Positions 6,516 to 58,837 of a DNA stretch of 64,000 nt are shown here, in pieces (within the stretch, counting starts at the first letter, position 1; every line of letters begins with the position of its first letter). The translations under genes and the position numbers were made by a program. The notes under the pieces are model-generated. The model was not told the DNA's origin and ran no database searches. It saw only the letters and a list, made by a program, of their open reading frames with translations. Source of the stretch: Chryseobacterium cucumeris (GTDB lineage Bacteria > Bacteroidota > Bacteroidia > Flavobacteriales > Weeksellaceae); NCBI RefSeq assembly GCF_016775705.1, contig NZ_CP068760.1, positions 1,860,001 through 1,924,000 on the forward strand. The letters are read 5' to 3'.

Positions 6516-8357
6516 ATGGAATCTTTAAACAATATCAATGCACTTACACTCATCTTTGTATCTGTTCTTCTTTTTGCGATAGCTTACCGTTTTTACGGTA
6601 TTTTCATTGCCAATAAAGTTCTCCGGCTTAATGACGGGAATACAACACCTGCTGTAGAATTTGCAGATGGTAAAGATTATGTGGCTACCAATAAAAATGT
6701 ACTTTTCGGGCATCATTTTGCAGCTATTGCAGCTGCGGGACCTTTGGTAGGCCCTGTTTTGGCGGCACAATTCGGGTATCTTCCCGGCGCATTATGGATA
6801 TTGATAGGATGCGTACTGGGAGGCGGAGTGCATGACATGATCGTTCTTTTTGCTTCAGTGAGGCATAAAGGGCAAAGTCTAGCCACGATTGCTTCCAAAG
6901 AAATCGGGAAAGCAACGGGTACGGTAGCAGGTTTTGCGATCCTCTTCATTTTGATTCTTACACTGGCAGGTCTATCTTTAGCTTGCATCAACGCGATGCA
7001 TGAAGCTTCATGGTCTCTTTTTACCGTTGTGATTACGATGCCTATTGCGATCATTATGGGTCTGATTATGCGTTATAAAAAGAATAGTGTCCTGTTTGCA
7101 AGTATTTTGGGAGGTATTCTTTTGGTTGCAGGAATTATCGGAGGACATACCCTCATGCAGAATCCTACGATGAATGGTTTATTTTCCTGGGATATTAAAA
7201 CCATTTCTATTGCCATTCCTCTGTATGGTTTTATTGCTTCGGTATTACCCGTATGGCTTCTTTTGGTTCCCAGGGATTATCTATCGACTTATTTAAAGAT
7301 CGGAACGATTATCATGCTGGCTATAGGGGTAATCGTTATCCATCCAACGATACAGATGCCGGCTATCACAGCATTTGTTAATGGCGGCGGCCCTATTATT
7401 GGCGGTCCGGTACTTCCTTTTATCTTCATTGTAATTGCCTGCGGAGCGATTTCCGGGTTCCATGCGGTGATTGCTACGGGAACCACTCCGAAAATGCTTA
7501 ATAAAGAAAGAGAAATTCTTTTTGTTGGTTACGGAGCCATGCTGGTAGAAGGTTTTGTCGCATTAATGGCGCTTATCGCAGCCTGTACACTGATGCCGGG
7601 TGATTATTTTGCCATCAACACGCCCAAAGAAGCCTATGATTCATTTCTGGCAGCGCATCCTTCTTTGCACGGAGTGGATATTGATTATTACTCCCAGAAA
7701 ATAGGTATTGATCTGTATGGCAGAACCGGAGGTGCAGTATCTCTGGCCGTGGGAATGGCCCATATCTTTAATAAAATCCCGTATATGGATCAGCTTACCG
7801 CGTATTGGTATAATTTCGCGATTATGTTTGAAGCGGTATTTATTCTTACAGCCATTGATGCAGGAACAAGAGTCGGACGCTTCTTCTTACAGGAAATGCT
7901 GGGGTCCGTAGTTCCAAAGTTTAATGATAAAAACTGGATTCCGGGAATCATTATCAGCAGTCTTCTTTTCACTTTTGCCTGGGGATATCTGGTATATACA
8001 GGAAATGTAAACAGTATCTGGCCGTTATTCGGAATCAGTAACCAATTGCTGGCAGCCTGCGGGCTTATTGTCTGTACAACGATGCTGATCAGAATGAACA
8101 GGGGAAAATATGCTTTATGCTCGGCTATTCCGGGTGTATTCATGGCTGGAATTACCTTCTGGGCGGGTTATATTCAGGTGACCGCCATTTACATTCCTAA
8201 AGGGCAGTATTTGCTGGCTGCTTTAGCGGTGACAGCCATGGTTCTGATGCTTATTGTATTTGCAGGAGCTTTCAGAAAGTGGTATCAGCTGCTTCAAATC
8301 AAAACAACTGAAATTGACCATTATGGTGAACCAGTGAAAGAACTGGTAGAAAGATAA
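6516..8357 (+). CDS. cstA: CstA-family carbon starvation protein (peptide/pyruvate transporter)
   Basis: A 613-residue integral membrane protein with more than a dozen hydrophobic segments. The N-terminal block contains FGHHFAAIAAAGPLVGPVLAAQ and GGGVHDM, both characteristic of CstA; the C-terminal CstA_5TM-like part follows about residue 430 (the ILTAIDAGTR segment). Homologues in enterobacteria import pyruvate or peptides under starvation, acting in the inner membrane. The 613-residue length fits the shorter CstA subgroup. The ~195 bp upstream is AT-rich with no clear promoter match. A terminator follows the gene. Confidence 0.88.
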   Translation: MESLNNINALTLIFVSVLLFAIAYRFYGIFIANKVLRLNDGNTTPAVEFADGKDYVATNKNVLFGHHFAAIAAAGPLVGPVLAAQFGYLPGALWILIGCVLGGGVHDMIVLFASVRHKGQSLATIASKEIGKATGTVAGFAILFILILTLAGLSLACINAMHEASWSLFTVVITMPIAIIMGLIMRYKKNSVLFASILGGILLVAGIIGGHTLMQNPTMNGLFSWDIKTISIAIPLYGFIASVLPVWLLLVPRDYLSTYLKIGTIIMLAIGVIVIHPTIQMPAITAFVNGGGPIIGGPVLPFIFIVIACGAISGFHAVIATGTTPKMLNKEREILFVGYGAMLVEGFVALMALIAACTLMPGDYFAINTPKEAYDSFLAAHPSLHGVDIDYYSQKIGIDLYGRTGGAVSLAVGMAHIFNKIPYMDQLTAYWYNFAIMFEAVFILTAIDAGTRVGRFFLQEMLGSVVPKFNDKNWIPGIIISSLLFTFAWGYLVYTGNVNSIWPLFGISNQLLAACGLIVCTTMLIRMNRGKYALCSAIPGVFMAGITFWAGYIQVTAIYIPKGQYLLAALAVTAMVLMLIVFAGAFRKWYQLLQIKTTEIDHYGEPVKELVER

Positions 8358-8374
8358 AATTCAAATTTTATACA

Positions 8375-8410
8375 GAAAAAACAGTTCAGGATTTCTGAAC
8401 TGTTTTTTTA
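8375..8410. terminator. Bidirectional terminator between cstA and the TonB receptor gene
   Basis: Stem ACAGTTCAG/CTGAACTGT (8381-8403) with an A-run on the left and seven T on the right. It separates convergent genes and could serve both strands. Confidence 0.85.
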
Positions 8411-8430
8411 AGCATTATCTTTTGTTTTAT

Positions 8431-11211
8431 TTAAAAATTGAAATTCAATCTTGCAAAAACATATCTTCCATTCTGCCCAAACTGTGAAGTAGATCTTGAA
8501 TAGATGAATTGGTCATTATTGGTAGAAGCGGTAAGGTTTTTCGTTGGATAGATATCAAACAAATTGTTTACTCCTAAAGTCAGTCCTACATTTTTAGTAA
8601 ACTGATAAGCAGCAGATAAATCCGTAATGATCTTATCTCCGATCTGCTGATGTTCGTTAAAATCAATGATTCCGTCTCCGTTTACATCAATAATATCAGC
8701 GCCTGTTACTTTTCCGAAATAGGTATTTCTGAGATATAAACTTGCATTCTTCCATGAAAGCGTATGAGAAAGACTGGCTTTCACTCTAGGTACCGCTTCT
8801 TCCAGATACACTCTTGATTTTTCAGAAAAATAAATCTTTTCAAGCGAAGGAGACTGCAGCAGCCCGGCCGAATGAATTTCTCCTACCTGTTTGGTTTGGT
8901 TCAGATTAATCGCAAAGTTATTGTCCAGTTTTATTCCTGAAAATCTCACATTATGGGAAATTACCACATCTAAACCTTTTGTTTCTGTATCGATAGCATT
9001 TGTGAAGAACTGGGCACCATTCACATTTAATTTATCATATTCTTTTTGTGCATCTGAAGGTACATCTTTTCTTAAAAACTGATCAGTAAGAATGATACGG
9101 TTATCAATTCTCGTAAAATATCCGTCCGCGGTAAAGCTAAGCCCGGCCGAAGGAATTCTGTAAGTAAATCCTACACTTGCTGATTTGGAAGTTTCCTGCT
9201 TCAGTTTTGGCATACCCAGCAGTCCTGCCAGCTGAGAATCATTACTGAAAGTTCCTACTTCCAACAGTTGATTATTGGTGAACAACGTAGAGGTTACATT
9301 ATAATAGATCTGGTGGATAGATGGTGCTCTGAATCCTGTAGATCCCGCAAATCTTACATTGAAATTAGGAGCTACTTTGATTCTTGAAGCCAGTTTATAA
9401 TTGAATGTAGATCCAAAATCTGAATAGTTTTCATATCTCGCTGCTGCATCTACCAATAACCAATTGGTAAAGTTGAATTCAACATCTGCATACGCTGCTA
9501 CCGACTGTCTGTTTTTATCGACTGCATTTCCAGGCCTGAATCCGTTGAATACCTGAGAACCTCCCGGCAAGGGTTGTCCAAAAAAGTCTGTGGCTCTCTG
9601 GCTTGGATCTCCGTTCCAGATATTTCCAAACTGGTCATATGTCTGATAGGAAGCTTCTTCTCCTTGGGTAATTTTAAAATTCTCATAACGGTGCTCACCT
9701 CCAAAGGCTACATTAATTCCTTCCCATACATCATATTTCTTAGAAAAATCTAAATTGATCGTATTTTGAGAAAATCTTAAACCACCTGCATTAAACTCCC
9801 TTGGTGAAGCAAAACGCAAAGAGGTATTTCCTGTATTCTGAATATTATAGGTAAATGAATTCTGTCCGTACGTATTACTGAAATCAATATTCCAGCCTTC
9901 CCATTTTCCTTTGATTCCCGCTGCCAATGAGATATCCTGAATATCTGTTCCGATCTGTGGAAGATAACCGTTAGGATACAATCCCGTAAACGTTCTGCTT
10001 TCTCTCGGTCTTCTGTAAAATCCTCCGGAAGTTCCATGTCTTAAACTGTATCCTCCAAAAGTATATACTTTCCAGTTATCACTTACAGGAATTTCAGCAT
10101 TCACAAAAAGCTGGTGATTGTTAAGTTTAGACTGTCCTACCTGCATATTAAAATCCTTTCTGACCTGTCCTCTGTAAGCCAGTTCCTGATCTGTCACATC
10201 GGCACTCAATAAAGACCAAAGTCCTTTCTGAAGAACATTTCCTGAAGCATCCGTAATGTCTTTAAATGTATTTGCATTTTGTATGTCAGAGAGCTGAGTT
10301 GCACTAAAATAGTTCACTCCCTGAGCATACTGATGTACATAATCAATAATCTGCTGTGAATTGGGAGTATTATTTATATTGGTAAAAAGAGAAGAAAGAT
10401 TGACTCCGTCATTCAAGGCACGTTGTTCTATCGCATTATAAGCATTGTAGATTTTTCCACTTTCAGTACCGGCGCGGTAGGTAGGATTTCTGAATTGTGA
10501 AGACCAGGTAATATTAAAGAACCCTCCTTTGGTTCCGATTTTATTTCCATAGTTCAAATCCAGCTGAATATTCTGACCGTCAAAATCTCCGGTATGATCA
10601 TTAGCCGTTGGCGTAAGGTTTCCTCCATAGCTTATCTGTCCTGCCAGTTTTCCTGTATCTCTTTTCAGGTCAAGGTTGATAACACCGGCAATGGCATCAG
10701 ATCCGTATTGTGCGGCAGCTCCGTCTCTTAATACTTCAATCCTGTTCAAAGCGAAAGATGGAATGGCATTCAAATCGGTTCCTACGGTACCTCTTCCAGG
10801 TGTTCCGTTGACGTTCACCAATGCTGAAGTATGTCTTCTTTTTCCATTCACCAAAACCAAAACCTGGTCTGGCCCCAAGCCTCTCAGCTGTGCAGGATCC
10901 AGGTGATCTGTTCCATCTGAATTCGTTTGAATGGTAGAAGTAAATGAAGGAGCAACCGCATTCAGAATCTGCCCGATATTGGTTTGCGGGAGTATAACTG
11001 AAGATTCTTTAACATTAAATACATCTACAGGAACCGGACTATCTGTTTTGGATCTCGCCCCGGCTCTGGAACCCAGTACGACTACTTCTTCTACATTATT
11101 GGTTTTTATGGTGTCTTTATTTGCTTTTATGCTGTCTTTTTCCTGTCCATAAGTAAATACACCGAGGAAAAATAAAACAGAGGCCGAAAGAATAGTTTTC
11201 TTATTTTTCAT
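8431..11211 (-). CDS. TonB-dependent outer-membrane receptor
   Basis: A 926-residue protein with a signal peptide ending near FTYGQ, then a plug domain (about 60-180) with the usual landmarks: LRGLGPDQVLVLVNGKR, ALNRIEVLRDGAAAQYGSDAIAGVIN. The rest is beta-barrel, ending in the aromatic-terminal strand RYVFARLNFNF expected for BAM recognition. The N-terminal stretch with VEEVVVLGSR acts as the TonB box region. There is no SusD-like partner next to it, so this is a stand-alone receptor, more like a siderophore or metal importer than a SusC glycan importer; the ligand is not evident. A consensus promoter lies at 11251-11281. Confidence 0.9.
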   Translation of the reverse strand: MKNKKTILSASVLFFLGVFTYGQEKDSIKANKDTIKTNNVEEVVVLGSRAGARSKTDSPVPVDVFNVKESSVILPQTNIGQILNAVAPSFTSTIQTNSDGTDHLDPAQLRGLGPDQVLVLVNGKRRHTSALVNVNGTPGRGTVGTDLNAIPSFALNRIEVLRDGAAAQYGSDAIAGVINLDLKRDTGKLAGQISYGGNLTPTANDHTGDFDGQNIQLDLNYGNKIGTKGGFFNITWSSQFRNPTYRAGTESGKIYNAYNAIEQRALNDGVNLSSLFTNINNTPNSQQIIDYVHQYAQGVNYFSATQLSDIQNANTFKDITDASGNVLQKGLWSLLSADVTDQELAYRGQVRKDFNMQVGQSKLNNHQLFVNAEIPVSDNWKVYTFGGYSLRHGTSGGFYRRPRESRTFTGLYPNGYLPQIGTDIQDISLAAGIKGKWEGWNIDFSNTYGQNSFTYNIQNTGNTSLRFASPREFNAGGLRFSQNTINLDFSKKYDVWEGINVAFGGEHRYENFKITQGEEASYQTYDQFGNIWNGDPSQRATDFFGQPLPGGSQVFNGFRPGNAVDKNRQSVAAYADVEFNFTNWLLVDAAARYENYSDFGSTFNYKLASRIKVAPNFNVRFAGSTGFRAPSIHQIYYNVTSTLFTNNQLLEVGTFSNDSQLAGLLGMPKLKQETSKSASVGFTYRIPSAGLSFTADGYFTRIDNRIILTDQFLRKDVPSDAQKEYDKLNVNGAQFFTNAIDTETKGLDVVISHNVRFSGIKLDNNFAINLNQTKQVGEIHSAGLLQSPSLEKIYFSEKSRVYLEEAVPRVKASLSHTLSWKNASLYLRNTYFGKVTGADIIDVNGDGIIDFNEHQQIGDKIITDLSAAYQFTKNVGLTLGVNNLFDIYPTKNLTASTNNDQFIYSRSTSQFGQNGRYVFARLNFNF

Positions 11212-52752: not shown

Positions 52753-52990
52753 AGCTGTAAAATTTTTAATTAATATTCTTTGATTTTTTCCGGTCCAAAA
52801 TTGCAGAAGAAAAAGATCCCAGTCTTCTTTTATGCAACTACAAAACATCTTCAATTCAGATTACGGATGACTACAAAATGTCTACAAAAACAATTAAAAA
52901 TCTAATATTCAACAAATTACAAACAATACATAGTTCTACTTTTTCAGACAGGAAATTGACAGGTGTCTACAATTTTTGTACTTTCACCTT

Positions 52991-54841
52991 ATGAAATTAA
53001 AGTACTTACTTTTATACTGTATACTTTTTATCTGCCCATTATATCCCGCACAGAATACATTTATTGATGGTCTTAAGAACCAGTTGAATGAAGATCATAT
53101 TTCTACTGCAGAAAAATTCAGAATTTACAATGAACTTACCGAATATTACAGAGTCAGCGATCAATATTCTACAGCTGAAAAATATGTTCAGCAGCAACTT
53201 GATCTTGCTAAAAAAGAAAATGATTATGCTGAAGAAGTAAAAGCTCTCAGTCAAAAAGGAGTCATTAAGCTTAATCAGTCTGAATATGATAAGATTCCTC
53301 CTATTCTGGATGCTGCGAATGCAATTGTTCAAAAGAGTCAAAATAAAACTGCGGAACTATATGCCACTTATCTGAATATCTACTACAGAAATGCACTTGG
53401 CGAACTTGAAAATACAATCAGGCTTGTTCAGAAAGTTCTTCCCACCGTTGAAAAACAACCTTCTGAAATCTTATTAAACGCAAAGCTCAATTATCTTCTC
53501 TATGGAATCTATACAGAATGGAACGATGCTGACAATGCCACCAGATATGCCAAGAAATCCATAGAGCTTGCTGAAAAGGCGGGAAACAAAAATTTACTCA
53601 GCTCTACCTATTCGGCGCTGGCTGTCTGCTACTCCTTTCAATATGAGAAAAGCGGGAACTCAAAAGATCTGAAACCCGTCATTGAGATGTGTAAGAAAGC
53701 TGTTGGCCTGTACCATCAATTTCCCGGTCATGTCTCAGCCCATGTACATGCAATGGCCTTACTGAATCTTACAAACTATTATCTGAGCTATCCGGTTATG
53801 ACTCCCGAAATCCGTGAGGAAATTCAGAATAACGCCCACGAAATCCTGACCCTTACCCAGCATACGACTCTTAATCAGAGTATGCAGGCAGGTGCACTTG
53901 GTGTTTTGAGCAATCTTGCATCACGGGATCAGAATGATGCTTTATCAGAGCAGTATCTTCTGAAAGCTGAACAGATTCTGCTTACCCAGCAGCCGGTTTA
54001 TTATCACGTGATGATCAATGTGGTAAAAAATCTTGCAGAGCTTTATGCAAAACAGAAAAATTACCGGAAAGCTTATGAGTACGAGACAAAAGTAACAGAA
54101 TACAGCAATCTTCTCTTTGATGAAGGCCAGGCTGAAACTGCAAAAAGGTTGGAAGCTCAGTATCAATCGCAGAAAAAAGAATCTGAACTCAGATCTCTCA
54201 CCGAAAAAACGGCCAGTCTGAAAAAGGAAAAACTTCTTTATATTATACTGGGAATCATAGGATTGATTGGAGCCTTCTTTATGTTCCGTTCTTATCATTT
54301 TAAACTGCGGTATTCTATAGAAAGGGAAAATAAGCTTGATACAGAAAAGCATGAAGCAGAAATGCAGGTCAAACTTCAGGAGGAAGAGCAGGCCCGATTA
54401 AGGGCAGAACAGGAACTACTTACCCTTCAGCAGCAAAAACTTCAAAGTGAGGTACTGGCGAGCCAGCTTCATATTCAGCATAAGAATGAGGTTCTGCAGC
54501 AGCTTCAGACCCAGCTTTCCGATACGGATATTAATATTCATCAGGTGGTAAAAGGAGAAAATCGGGTTGACAATGATTTTGAAAAAATCAGATTCACCAT
54601 TCAGGAACTGCATCCTGATTTCTTCAAAAATATCAATGAAAAAGCTAAACAAAAGCTTACTGCTCTGGATTTGAAATACTGTGCTTACCTCTATCTGGGA
54701 ATGGACACCAAACAAATTGCCAACCTCCTCAATGTAGAACCCAAAAGTGTAAGAATGACCAAATACCGGTTGAAGAAAAAGTTCGGACTCGACGAGAATA
54801 CTGCTTTAGAATCTTTTTTCCAGGGGGTGTTTTCTGAGTAA
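52991..54841 (+). CDS. TPR-containing membrane-bound transcriptional regulator (LuxR-like HTH)
   Basis: A 616-residue regulator. The ATG at 52991 gives a signal (MKLKYLLLYCILFICPLYPAQ); an upstream TTG is not needed. Residues about 20-400 are helical TPR repeats in the periplasm, ILGIIGLIGAFFMF (about 420) is the membrane helix, a long coiled coil (EKHEAEMQVKLQEEEQARLRAEQELL) leads to a C-terminal HTH at about 555-615 (LTALDLKYCAYLYLGMDTKQIANLLNVEPKSVRMTKYRLKKKF). This class senses an envelope signal and binds DNA. Targets unknown. It lies just upstream of the RiPP locus on the same strand, but a terminator and ~600 bp separate them. Confidence 0.87.
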   Translation: MKLKYLLLYCILFICPLYPAQNTFIDGLKNQLNEDHISTAEKFRIYNELTEYYRVSDQYSTAEKYVQQQLDLAKKENDYAEEVKALSQKGVIKLNQSEYDKIPPILDAANAIVQKSQNKTAELYATYLNIYYRNALGELENTIRLVQKVLPTVEKQPSEILLNAKLNYLLYGIYTEWNDADNATRYAKKSIELAEKAGNKNLLSSTYSALAVCYSFQYEKSGNSKDLKPVIEMCKKAVGLYHQFPGHVSAHVHAMALLNLTNYYLSYPVMTPEIREEIQNNAHEILTLTQHTTLNQSMQAGALGVLSNLASRDQNDALSEQYLLKAEQILLTQQPVYYHVMINVVKNLAELYAKQKNYRKAYEYETKVTEYSNLLFDEGQAETAKRLEAQYQSQKKESELRSLTEKTASLKKEKLLYIILGIIGLIGAFFMFRSYHFKLRYSIERENKLDTEKHEAEMQVKLQEEEQARLRAEQELLTLQQQKLQSEVLASQLHIQHKNEVLQQLQTQLSDTDINIHQVVKGENRVDNDFEKIRFTIQELHPDFFKNINEKAKQKLTALDLKYCAYLYLGMDTKQIANLLNVEPKSVRMTKYRLKKKFGLDENTALESFFQGVFSE

Positions 54842-55458: not shown

Positions 55459-55659
55459 ATGAAAAAATTAAATGGAATGAAGAGTGGCTTCTCTTCTACA
55501 GAAAACAAGAAATTACAAAGAAAGGATCTAAAATCTATTTTAGGTGGAGATGGTTATAAATATGTAGAAACAGATTGTGGTTCTACATGTTATGATAAAG
55601 AAACATGGAAAGATGGGACTCTTATCAGTACTTTAAAAATAGATACCAGCCTTAATTAG
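55459..55659 (+). CDS. RiPP precursor peptide with double-glycine leader (grasp-with-spasm type)
   Basis: A 66-residue peptide. Residues 1-30 are a leader ending KDLKSILGG, the Bacteroidota GG-type cleavage motif (Gly29-Gly30). The 36-residue core carries a CGSTC pair (Cys40, Cys44), several Asp/Glu (31, 37, 39, 46, 48, 52, 62) and Ser/Thr/Lys acceptors, the residues an ATP-grasp ligase would link by ester or amide bonds. The maturation genes follow at 55727-58777. GG leaders are normally cut by a C39-peptidase ABC exporter, which is absent from this window. Found by sequence pattern; product structure unknown. Confidence 0.85.
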   Translation: MKKLNGMKSGFSSTENKKLQRKDLKSILGGDGYKYVETDCGSTCYDKETWKDGTLISTLKIDTSLN

Positions 55660-55726
55660 TATTATCACAGATAGAGGGTTATCCCTCTATCTCTTTTATC
55701 ATCACACCATATTCGTTAGAGAATTT

Positions 55727-56632
55727 ATGAAAAAGGATATTTGGAACTATGCTTCATATGGTTTAATAGCTATAATTTTCACTCTCATAGCTTGCAAGAG
55801 CAGAAATTTGAACTATATAACCTATTATAATAGAATCAATGAAATCGACAGTATATTTCGTTTACAAAAGGATACAATATTTACAATTAAGCAGTACAAA
55901 AAAATATTCAGCCAATATCCTCCCAAAAACCAGGAACGGAGGGAGGAATATGAAAATTACATAAAGCTTGCAGATCAACATCACAAAAATTTCGGAGGGA
56001 AAAAAAGTCTTTACAAGCTTATTCCGTTAGTTGCACATAATTGGAAATATAAAAAGCAAGACTCCAGCTTCATACAGCTCTATCAAAAATATGGTATTGG
56101 CAGGCAGGAAATGGAATTGAAAGTTGAGGAATGGAAAAGAGGACTTAATCAAAAACTTGTAGATTCTTTTACAGTCGCGTTTAAACGTGATCAAGACAGC
56201 CGTATTGATTCAAATTATGCAGATATCAATAAAAATGATAAAAAGAATGCTGAACTTCTGAGGTGGATGTTTGAGAATTATGGTTTCCCAAGTCTGCAAA
56301 AAATTGGTTTATCAAATGGTGATTTCTTTATGCCATCAGGACCTATATTACTACACATGGCAGATTATGAAGAGTATTACCCATATTTGAAAATAAAGCT
56401 ATTAGAGTATGTAAAATCTGGTGAATGTCCCCCAAGAGACTACGCAGCTATGGTAGATAGAAATAATTTACACCATAAAGTACCTTATACTTATGGCGTT
56501 TATCAAGGATATGAAAATATAAAAGACTCCGCAACCGTCAATCGTAATCGCAAAAACATAGGGCTGCCAAGCTTAAAGCATGCTCAGTTGATTACAAAAG
56601 ATTTTTTCAAAAAAATAAAAAAGAAAAATTGA
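55727..56632 (+). CDS. DUF6624-like lipoprotein in the RiPP locus
   Basis: A 301-residue protein with a lipoprotein signal: LIAC at residues 20-23, followed by KSRN. The C-terminal half contains LLRWMFENYGFPSLQKIGLS, GPILLHMADYEEYY and DYAAMVDRNNLHHKVPYTYGV, which resembles the DUF6624 family (helix-rich, with a conserved D-R and a Y-G after it). It is placed between the precursor and the ATP-grasp gene and ends in TTGA, where TTG is the next start, so it is translationally coupled to the maturase. An immunity, binding or proteolytic role is a guess only. Confidence 0.75.
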   Translation: MKKDIWNYASYGLIAIIFTLIACKSRNLNYITYYNRINEIDSIFRLQKDTIFTIKQYKKIFSQYPPKNQERREEYENYIKLADQHHKNFGGKKSLYKLIPLVAHNWKYKKQDSSFIQLYQKYGIGRQEMELKVEEWKRGLNQKLVDSFTVAFKRDQDSRIDSNYADINKNDKKNAELLRWMFENYGFPSLQKIGLSNGDFFMPSGPILLHMADYEEYYPYLKIKLLEYVKSGECPPRDYAAMVDRNNLHHKVPYTYGVYQGYENIKDSATVNRNRKNIGLPSLKHAQLITKDFFKKIKKKN

Positions 56633-57531
56633 TACTGATCATTTCTCAAAATAACGAGATAACCACTACAGAAGTCATTAAATGGCTACAAAAATTGGAT
56701 AAAAGCTTTATCCGGGTGCATGAAGATGAAATTTTTGATATTAAAATCCAAGAAAAACGGATTTATCTAGAAAGCCCGAGAAATTGTTTTTTTATTGATG
56801 AAATTAGCAGTGTATGGTATAGAAGAGGTAGACTGAAGTTTAACCGCCTGTACTATAAAAATGAAGCGATTAACCTCCATATGAATGAATATCAACACTG
56901 GCTGGAAGATTATGTAATAAAGGTTTTAGAGTCAAAAAAACATATTAATAAACAAAGCAATTGTGATATCAATAAACTTCTTGTGCTTGAAGAGGCCCAA
57001 AAGGCTGGATTAGATGTTCCGTCTTATTTTCTGGCTGACAACACAGATCATGTTACTTTAAATAAAACAATCATCAAAACCATTGGTGGCAACCCAAGAA
57101 TGGAAAGCATACTCAAGGATTCCAGTGGGATGATGTATACAACAGTTGTTCAAGAAAATGAAAATAAAAATTTTTTAATCACTTTTTTTCAGGAAAAAAT
57201 CGAAAAAAACTTCGAGATCAGAAGCTTTTATCTAAATGGTAAAGTTTGGTCTACAGCCATCTTTTCGCAAAATGATAACCAAACTAAAATTGACTTTAGG
57301 AAATACAATGATGAAAAACCCAATAGAAAAGTACCTTATAATCTTCCGAAAAATATTGAGCAAAAAATACATCTGTTAATGCAGTCATTAGATCTTAATT
57401 CCGGTTCTCTTGATTTCATCAAAAATGATGGTAAATACTATTTTTTAGAAGTCAATCCAGTAGGCCAGTTTTTGGGAATATCAGTAATATGTAATTATTT
57501 ATTGGAAAAAGAAATAGCTGATTATTTATGA
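56629..57531 (+). CDS. gwsG: Grasp-with-spasm system ATP-grasp peptide maturase
   Basis: A 300-residue ATP-grasp ligase. It starts at TTG 56629, overlapping the stop of the lipoprotein gene. The family landmark WYRRGR (63-68) is present, as in MvdC/MvdD-type graspetide ligases. The metal/ATP site is D262 in SLDFI, E274 and N276 in FLEVNPVGQF. Such enzymes link Asp/Glu side chains to Ser/Thr/Lys of a precursor peptide with ATP. It is followed by a 4-bp ATGA overlap with the next gene. Cytosolic; precursor at 55459 is the presumed substrate. Confidence 0.88.
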   Translation: MILIISQNNEITTTEVIKWLQKLDKSFIRVHEDEIFDIKIQEKRIYLESPRNCFFIDEISSVWYRRGRLKFNRLYYKNEAINLHMNEYQHWLEDYVIKVLESKKHINKQSNCDINKLLVLEEAQKAGLDVPSYFLADNTDHVTLNKTIIKTIGGNPRMESILKDSSGMMYTTVVQENENKNFLITFFQEKIEKNFEIRSFYLNGKVWSTAIFSQNDNQTKIDFRKYNDEKPNRKVPYNLPKNIEQKIHLLMQSLDLNSGSLDFIKNDGKYYFLEVNPVGQFLGISVICNYLLEKEIADYL

Positions 57532-57710
57532 AAAGAGATTTTACTAACAAAGAAAAACATAAACTTCCCCTCACCTTTAAATATATTGACGTTGTAAAAA
57601 ACAAAATTCGTGAGAAAAAACATTTTAGCATCACCATTCCATGCGAAAAATACTATACTGATTCTTACGCAAAACTTAATCCTTATAAATTTCTGACGAG
57701 ATTATTATGA
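57528..57710 (+). CDS. Small basic protein between the two maturase genes
   Basis: A 60-residue ORF, Lys/Arg-rich, reading MKRDFTNKEKHKLPL at the start and YAKLNPYKFLTRLL at the end. It begins in the ATGA that ends the ATP-grasp gene and ends in the ATGA that starts the SPASM gene, so it is tightly coupled on both sides, which argues for a real protein. No motif recognised; one Cys (in ITIPCEKYY). It could be a recognition or adaptor protein for the precursor, or a second small peptide substrate. Confidence 0.65.
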   Translation: MKRDFTNKEKHKLPLTFKYIDVVKNKIREKKHFSITIPCEKYYTDSYAKLNPYKFLTRLL

Positions 57711-58777
57711 ACTATTTCAGCCTATTTGCCAACATCCTTATCACCAAAGGAGCCACCAGAATTCTCATTTCAGATCTACAGAGAAATATATCAGAACTGT
57801 ATCCGTTGGAGTTGTATGAAATTATAGAAGAGCTGAAAAACAAATCCGTTGAAGATACAATGACAAGTTATGATGAAGAATCCAAAGTAATTATTCAGGA
57901 ATACATCCATCTTCTGTTGGAAAAAGAATATGGATTTATTACAGAGAATGACTGGGATAGAAATTTTCCTCCCCTTTCTTTTGAACATCATGAGCCCAGC
58001 GCTATCACCAATCTCTTTATTGAAATGGACGATATCGGGATCATAAAGAAGATATTTCCGTCAATAGAAAACCTTGGGATTAAGCATTTGGTTATTTACA
58101 GCTCAAAACCTTTACCCTTAAAAGATTGTATAGAAATTGATGAAATTTTTAAAACCTCAGTGTTATCAGGAATAGAAATTTTCTCACCGTTTCACCAGGA
58201 AGTCAACCTCTCTTTTATACAGGCTCTTCAAAAAAATACGGTCAGAATATACAGTCTTATTTTTTACAATTGTCCGGAGTCTCCTTTCAAAGCTAAAGAT
58301 GAATATAGATTCTCACTGAATTTGCTGAAAGATGATCTGAAAATATCTGCCTGTGGAAAAGTGGAACTGAAATACTTCAACACGAATATTACTAAAGTTA
58401 TAGAAGCAGTGAACCACAATTCCTGCCTGCATAAAAAGATAGGCATTGATAGAAAAGGTAATATTAAAAACTGTCCACTGATGAATGAAAGCTTTGGAAA
58501 CATCCATAAATACAGTCTTGAAGAAGCTATCAATCAACCTGATTTCAGAAAATACTGGGATCTTACTAAAGACCAAATTGAAATATGCAAAGACTGTGAG
58601 TTCCGTTATGTCTGCACAGACTGCAGGGCATATACGGAAAACACATTAAAAAACAAAAAAGGCCTGAATATATCAAAACCTCTGAAATGCGGCTATAATC
58701 CTTATACGGGCGTTTGGGATGACTGGTCAAAAAACCCTTTAAAACAAGAAATTTTTAATTCCCTGGTACTCAGATAA
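57707..58777 (+). CDS. gwsS: Grasp-with-spasm system SPASM-domain maturase, no radical-SAM cluster motif
   Basis: A 356-residue protein. Residues 240-328 make a full SPASM domain: Cys240-x10-Gly251-x4-Cys256 (CLHKKIGIDRKGNIKNC), then C294-x2-C297-x5-C303-x2-C306 (CKDCEFRYVCTDC) and Cys328. The N-terminal ~235 residues are degenerate: no CxxxCxxC motif is present, so a SAM-cleaving [4Fe-4S] cluster is not expected. It resembles TIGR04193-like members of this system. Expected to bind two auxiliary Fe-S clusters and perhaps deliver the precursor to the ligase. Confidence 0.87.
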   Translation: MNYFSLFANILITKGATRILISDLQRNISELYPLELYEIIEELKNKSVEDTMTSYDEESKVIIQEYIHLLLEKEYGFITENDWDRNFPPLSFEHHEPSAITNLFIEMDDIGIIKKIFPSIENLGIKHLVIYSSKPLPLKDCIEIDEIFKTSVLSGIEIFSPFHQEVNLSFIQALQKNTVRIYSLIFYNCPESPFKAKDEYRFSLNLLKDDLKISACGKVELKYFNTNITKVIEAVNHNSCLHKKIGIDRKGNIKNCPLMNESFGNIHKYSLEEAINQPDFRKYWDLTKDQIEICKDCEFRYVCTDCRAYTENTLKNKKGLNISKPLKCGYNPYTGVWDDWSKNPLKQEIFNSLVLR

Positions 58778-58804: not shown

Positions 58805-58837
58805 AAACCGCTTTTAAATTAGATTTAAAAGCGGTTT
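58805..58837. terminator. Bidirectional terminator after the RiPP locus
   Basis: 15-bp perfect stem AAACCGCTTTTAAAT/ATTTAAAAGCGGTTT with TAG loop; it separates the RiPP genes from the convergent membrane-protein gene. The T-tail is short on both strands. Confidence 0.8.

Follow-up and report, generated by a model that had tools for sequence, protein, structure and literature searches.

Graspetide loci of the class designated branch 5 combine an ATP-grasp ligase and a SPASM-domain protein with precursors of the TIGR04139/PF14406 type that carry a double glycine (GG). In the original description of the branch (Makarova et al., 2022; PMC8939145), a small protein termed LPL is always encoded immediately 5' of the SPASM gene, nearly all loci have a lipoprotein of "cluster 23", small proteins other than LPL are treated as unrelated, and the SPASM protein is labeled a radical S-adenosylmethionine (SAM) enzyme, for which a role in thioether formation is proposed. 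Group 14 graspetides (Carter, 2026; PMC13097080) have a SPASM protein in every case and frequently an NHLM-type transporter, and DUF6624 proteins were reported there with several other graspetide groups. Here we analyze a locus of this kind in Chryseobacterium cucumeris, lying within a 64,000-nucleotide stretch of contig NZ_CP068760.1 (the window; coordinates are window positions, all on the + strand, unless another region is named). It is a real, intact "grasp-with-spasm" cluster for a ribosomally synthesized and post-translationally modified peptide (RiPP); a literature search with that phrase returned no match. Its sequence places it in branch 5, or group 14. Taken alone, the locus is an ordinary member of a graspetide group already known and brings little that is novel; what is new is mostly comparative detail on how the parts of such a cluster belong together. 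The reading that we favor, and consider on balance probable, is that the ATP-grasp ligase works with LPL as its adaptor and with a SPASM protein that does no radical chemistry, that the product is exported, and that the lipoprotein has its role outside the cytoplasm.

All five open reading frames are intact and lie where the initial annotation had put them. The first (55459–55659) encodes a 66-residue precursor with the leader MKKLNGMKSGFSSTENKKLQRKDLKSILGG, GG at residues 29-30, and the core DGYKYVETDCGSTCYDKETWKDGTLISTLKIDTSLN. There follow genes for a DUF6624-like lipoprotein of 301 residues, predicted to be exported, with a signal peptide and the lipobox L-I-A-C23 (55727–56632); an ATP-grasp ligase, or graspetide synthetase, of 300 residues with a TTG start (56629–57531); a 60-residue LPL-family protein containing KLPLTFKYI and, further on, KFLTRLL (57528–57710); and a 356-residue SPASM-domain protein that lacks the radical-SAM motif (57707–58777). 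From the lipoprotein onward each gene overlaps the next by 4 bp (TTGA, ATGA, and ATGA), also as originally described. Families were called at the cut-offs of the curated models (TIGR04192, 230 bits; TIGR04193, 175; TIGR04139, 40). The ligase scored 354.8 bits against TIGR04192, the SPASM protein 463.9 bits against TIGR04193, and the precursor 80.2 bits against TIGR04139, so far above the cut-offs that chance is ruled out, and both the grasp-with-spasm assignment and the GG-leader precursor that had been claimed are borne out. Against PF14406 the precursor scored 25.7 bits (cut-off 25). The motifs WYRR and D-x11-E-x-N previously noted in the ligase are present (DFIKNDGKYYFLEVN), as is a DFR motif; its closest solved chains are 5ig9, 7m4s, 5ig8, and 7mgv. 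The TTG start at 56629 is supported by the TIGR04192 alignment, which begins at residue 2.

The locus had been called complete, which is true of the precursor and enzymes but not of a leader peptidase or exporter, neither of which lies within it. The small protein and the lipoprotein had been regarded as extra genes. They correspond instead to published parts of the system: the 60-residue protein carries KLPLTF, and the lipoprotein, a probable member of cluster 23, fits that description in position, lipobox, and conserved His and Arg. Both kinds of gene were already named for this branch in 2022 (PMC8939145), and there, as in the window locus, LPL immediately precedes SPASM. The SPASM partner is also common to group 14, which is uncharacterized in PMC13097080, whereas the window locus has no transporter.

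Relatives were compared in two samples, about 180 loci, which overlap in part, some genomes being in both. The first comprised 100 genome regions, all but two of which (98) contained a match to SPASM, and the second 80 named loci, the best 80 of 453 relatives, from the genera Chryseobacterium, Pedobacter, Sphingobacterium, Taibaiella, and Flagellimonas. Of 299 genomes sampled from the family, 116 have a TIGR04193 match above the cut-off. The initial annotation had proposed a search for the same five genes elsewhere, and the exact order precursor-lipoprotein-grasp-LPL-SPASM was found in 33/98 regions of the first sample and 41/80 named loci. Most of the remaining loci were variants in which precursors were more numerous, lipoproteins were added or missing, or modules stood in tandem.

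A small open reading frame lay between the grasp and SPASM genes in 85 of 86 close pairs, and the LPL profile matched at the equivalent position in 76 of the 80 named loci; the LPL protein itself matched nothing in Pfam. Both it and the lipoprotein had been proposed as integral parts of this version of the system: the small protein is near-universal across the ~180 loci, and the lipoprotein does belong to this version, but it is not obligatory. Three loci (L137, L163, and L167) have complete or near-complete precursor-lipoprotein-grasp-LPL modules in tandem 5' of one SPASM gene, and SPASM genes outnumber grasp genes in none of the 80 named loci. Inserted lipoprotein genes split LPL from SPASM, not LPL from grasp. 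LPL goes with the ligase in the tandem modules, to which a single SPASM gene is common. Loci with a SPASM score below 490 bits provided 28 non-redundant, divergent small proteins, of which 17 end in K-x-[ILVY]-x-[KR]-[ILFM] (mean 1.1 and maximum 6 in 5000 shuffling runs) and 13 have an LPL-like P-h-x-h motif in the N-terminal half (shuffles: mean 1.4, maximum 7). Both patterns were picked after inspection, and these statistics are therefore descriptive. They suggest that LPL and the divergent proteins are one family with a common C-terminal motif, K-x-[IL]-x-[KR], where the branch 5 paper saw unrelated proteins (PMC8939145).

The P-h-x-h motif bears on another role for LPL, which we regard as rather less likely than not: its LPLTFKYI segment would supply in trans the Phhx(1,2)h motif that binds ATP-grasp enzymes, replacing the motif missing from the leaders of this branch. 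The resemblance is remarked upon by Makarova et al. (2022; PMC8939145), and the motif's frequency in the divergent small proteins, relative to shuffles, is consistent with it; the choice of the pattern after inspection and the modeling of a fused grasp-LPL chain, described below, argue the other way. In three loci, grasp and LPL or LPL and SPASM lie in one frame with a single stop between them (L179, 5909–7024; L186, 6901–8004; L215, 7857–9092), and these are natural templates for treating such a pair as one chain.

Against DUF6624 (PF20329) the lipoprotein scored 15.7 bits, under the Pfam gathering score of 27, and just 3 of 62 relatives matched at E ≤ 0.1. Profile-profile alignment (hhalign) with DUF6624 proteins of related genomes gave a probability of 97.7 over 144 columns, aligning the C-terminal 150 residues of the lipoprotein and leaving its N-terminal helical region outside the match. 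The original term "DUF6624-like" thus fails as a family call at the gathering score, but a distant relationship is supported by the profiles. An AlphaFold2 model of the lipoprotein, with a predicted local distance difference test score (pLDDT) of 92.8, is all-alpha; compared with PDB folds it gave no match at E ≤ 0.001, showing a weak TPR-like resemblance and no match to an enzyme. The lipoprotein is present in 70/100 regions and 59/80 named loci, and we rejected the idea that it is obligatory. Among 59 sampled loci with the SPASM proteins closest to that of the window, 54 have the lipoprotein and the other five a secreted GLPGLI-family protein; six have both. GLPGLI-family secreted proteins stand in place of the missing lipoprotein in L084, L085, L089, and others, and the one tested scored 137.8 bits against TIGR01200 (cut-off 50). 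In 17 of the 80 named loci, neither was found within the fetched flanks. The GLPGLI link is absent from the text of the branch 5 paper (PMC8939145).

In the 42 loci with the exact five-gene order, distances between cores correlated with those between lipoproteins (partial r 0.62 after controlling for grasp and SPASM; Mantel p 0.001), the highest value among the cross-gene pairs, while the core-SPASM correlation was 0.05. Core type requires 11 changes, the minimum, on each of the trees for lipoprotein, grasp, and LPL but 15 on that for SPASM, which argues that the first three genes move as a unit with the precursor, SPASM being swapped more freely. These counts weakened the case for the lipoprotein as the only gene that tracks the core. 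The core-lipoprotein covariation tells against the possibility, to which we give rather less than even credence, that the lipoprotein works as a maturation enzyme outside the cytoplasm, one of the "auxiliary extracellular enzymes" of Makarova et al., and not an immunity or receptor protein. Its conserved His210, Arg, and Asp positions would suit an enzyme, and several graspetide groups have related DUF6624 proteins (PMC13097080), but the lipoprotein is missing from roughly a quarter to a third of the loci, and the all-alpha model resembles, weakly, TPR-like folds and not enzymes.

The SPASM protein scored 32.4 bits against TIGR04085 (cut-off 27) and has the SPASM cysteine set. Across 100 aligned SPASM proteins, eight cysteines in the C-terminal half (216, 240, 256, 294, 297, 303, 306, and 328) are conserved at 98-100% and one more, Cys 189, at 57%. 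Neither the window protein nor a 29-sequence alignment shows the CxxxCxxC radical-SAM motif, and across the 100 aligned proteins no cysteine is conserved at the expected site, whereas genuine radical-SAM/SPASM proteins from this genus do carry the motif. With this motif missing, the initial view of the protein as a maturase is not borne out, and the window protein differs here from the label given in the branch 5 paper (PMC8939145). Elsewhere in the genome, at 3.933 Mb, a degenerate SPASM paralogue has lost C216, C240, C256, and C306 and retained C294, C297, C303, and C328. In known SPASM domains each cysteine set binds one [4Fe-4S] cluster, so that this split would fit two separate clusters. 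The paralogue stands in L037 (genome C1:3925000-3944000), where a divergent grasp, a small protein, and SPASM (7908–10024) have no recognized precursor, and genes for a lipoprotein and a GLPGLI-like protein lie 3' of SPASM. The N-terminus of the window protein, compared with PqqD by hhalign, gave a probability below 1 and an E of ~0.1-0.2, which is no statistical support for a RiPP recognition element or PqqD domain. The SPASM profile matched no SPASM or radical-SAM chain among PDB sequences; its sole match at E < 0.001 was a repeat protein, outside the SPASM domain.

It is improbable, in our judgment, that this protein is nevertheless a true tailoring enzyme, forming thioether or other bonds on precursor cysteines (Makarova et al., 2022) with LPL as a PqqD-like chaperone. 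The conservation of its cysteines throughout the family would agree with that, as would the frequent 4-bp overlap of LPL with SPASM and the distances of LPL, which correlate best with those of the leader (partial r 0.42). However, LPL remains beside grasp where lipoprotein genes part it from SPASM, and a single SPASM serves tandem grasp-LPL modules; moreover, because the aligned family has no CxxxCxxC and 20 of 90 precursors contain no Cys, the published thioether role is unlikely for this SPASM family. A structural or redox partner is the better guess.

In the reading that we favor, the ATP-grasp ligase would activate Asp/Glu side chains of the core, with D46 as the best-conserved candidate (D or E in 89 of 90 aligned precursors; "GG" occurs in 87 of the 90), and would join them in the cytoplasm to Ser/Thr or Lys side chains as esters or amides. 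A Ser/Thr-rich column ~10 residues N-terminal of D46 (71/90) fits an ester donor, and a loss of 18 Da per linkage is a reasonable expectation for this step. LPL would be a small adaptor of the ligase, acting in leader recognition or activation, and the SPASM protein, a non-radical iron-sulfur protein with two [4Fe-4S] clusters, would be the generic partner of the grasp-LPL unit. The peptide would be cleaved at GG and exported through one of the genome's C39 transporters, and the lipoprotein, outside the cytoplasm, might act on the exported peptide or protect against it. The chryseoviridin and microviridin systems (CdnC, MvdC/MvdD) have the ATP-grasp fold, the GG leader, and, if this is right, ester/amide linkages in common with the window locus. 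Their synthetases belong to other families, and we know of no SPASM or LPL in those systems. A stricter proposal, somewhat less likely than its negation, is a three-component reaction in which the ligase works only with the LPL adaptor and a non-radical SPASM pseudo-enzyme, whose clusters would be structural or redox sensing, the lipoprotein or GLPGLI protein being a swappable cognate module for protection or reception. The rosaritide protein MirC is an analogue of such a required partner, not a relative of the window proteins (PMC13097080).

Several points weigh against the favored reading. No characterized product of this graspetide group was described in the papers found. LPL overlaps SPASM by 4 bp more consistently (65/70 adjacent cases) than grasp overlaps LPL (56/79), which fits LPL as a partner of SPASM too. 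When the L179 grasp-LPL chain was modeled, reading through the stop, the grasp part was mostly confident but LPL was unplaced (pLDDT 35-46), and the model therefore lends no structural support to LPL-grasp binding. Finally, core type agrees with the grasp tree just as well as with that of the lipoprotein, and the core-lipoprotein covariation could stem from joint exchange of adjacent genes.

The genome encodes four C39 peptidase transporters, all away from the window locus. One lies beside the remnant of another system of the same type, L039 (genome C1:4360000-4375000; 7708–9165 and flanks), which retains an intact TIGR04139 precursor and lipoprotein, with its ATP-grasp reduced to 62 residues and LPL and SPASM missing; its other neighbors are an HlyD protein, a 504-residue membrane/thioredoxin-like protein, and a further GG peptide. 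Enzymes of the window locus might act in trans on the L039 precursor. Also in this genome, an MvdC/MvdD-type ATP-grasp pair (L038, genome C1:3143501-3145403; 434.9 and 499.8 bits, above cut-offs) is, from these scores, a microviridin/chryseoviridin-type cluster. That the window locus is decaying and silent is very unlikely, for although no transporter is nearby and the genome holds a degenerate second copy and the remnant of a third, its five frames, catalytic motifs, and gene coupling are preserved and C39 transporters are available elsewhere.

Between the precursor and the downstream genes lies a terminator- or attenuator-like 10-bp hairpin (55669–55692; -17.5 kcal/mol, z = -4.75), followed by CTTTT. 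Of 74 relatives, 29 have a terminator-like hairpin at the equivalent spot, compared with 0.14% of shuffled spacers, which suggests that more precursor than enzyme transcript may be made; this hairpin was not found in the passages of the branch 5 paper (PMC8939145). A 15-bp inverted repeat 3' of the operon (58805–58837) is a likely terminator. The upstream gene (52976–54838) encodes a TPR protein of 621 residues whose C-terminus is of the LuxR type (FimS-like at 56 bits, far under the cut-off), and another TPR/AraC-type regulator is found upstream of some related loci.

This graspetide group is large, with 453 relatives in one scan and, in the literature found, no characterized product, and the compact, intact window locus suits a first reconstitution. 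The missing radical-SAM motif and the association of LPL with grasp in tandem modules change both the choice of genes to co-express and the mass shifts to look for. If the three-component proposal is true, a SPASM pseudo-enzyme would be the obligate partner of a ligase.

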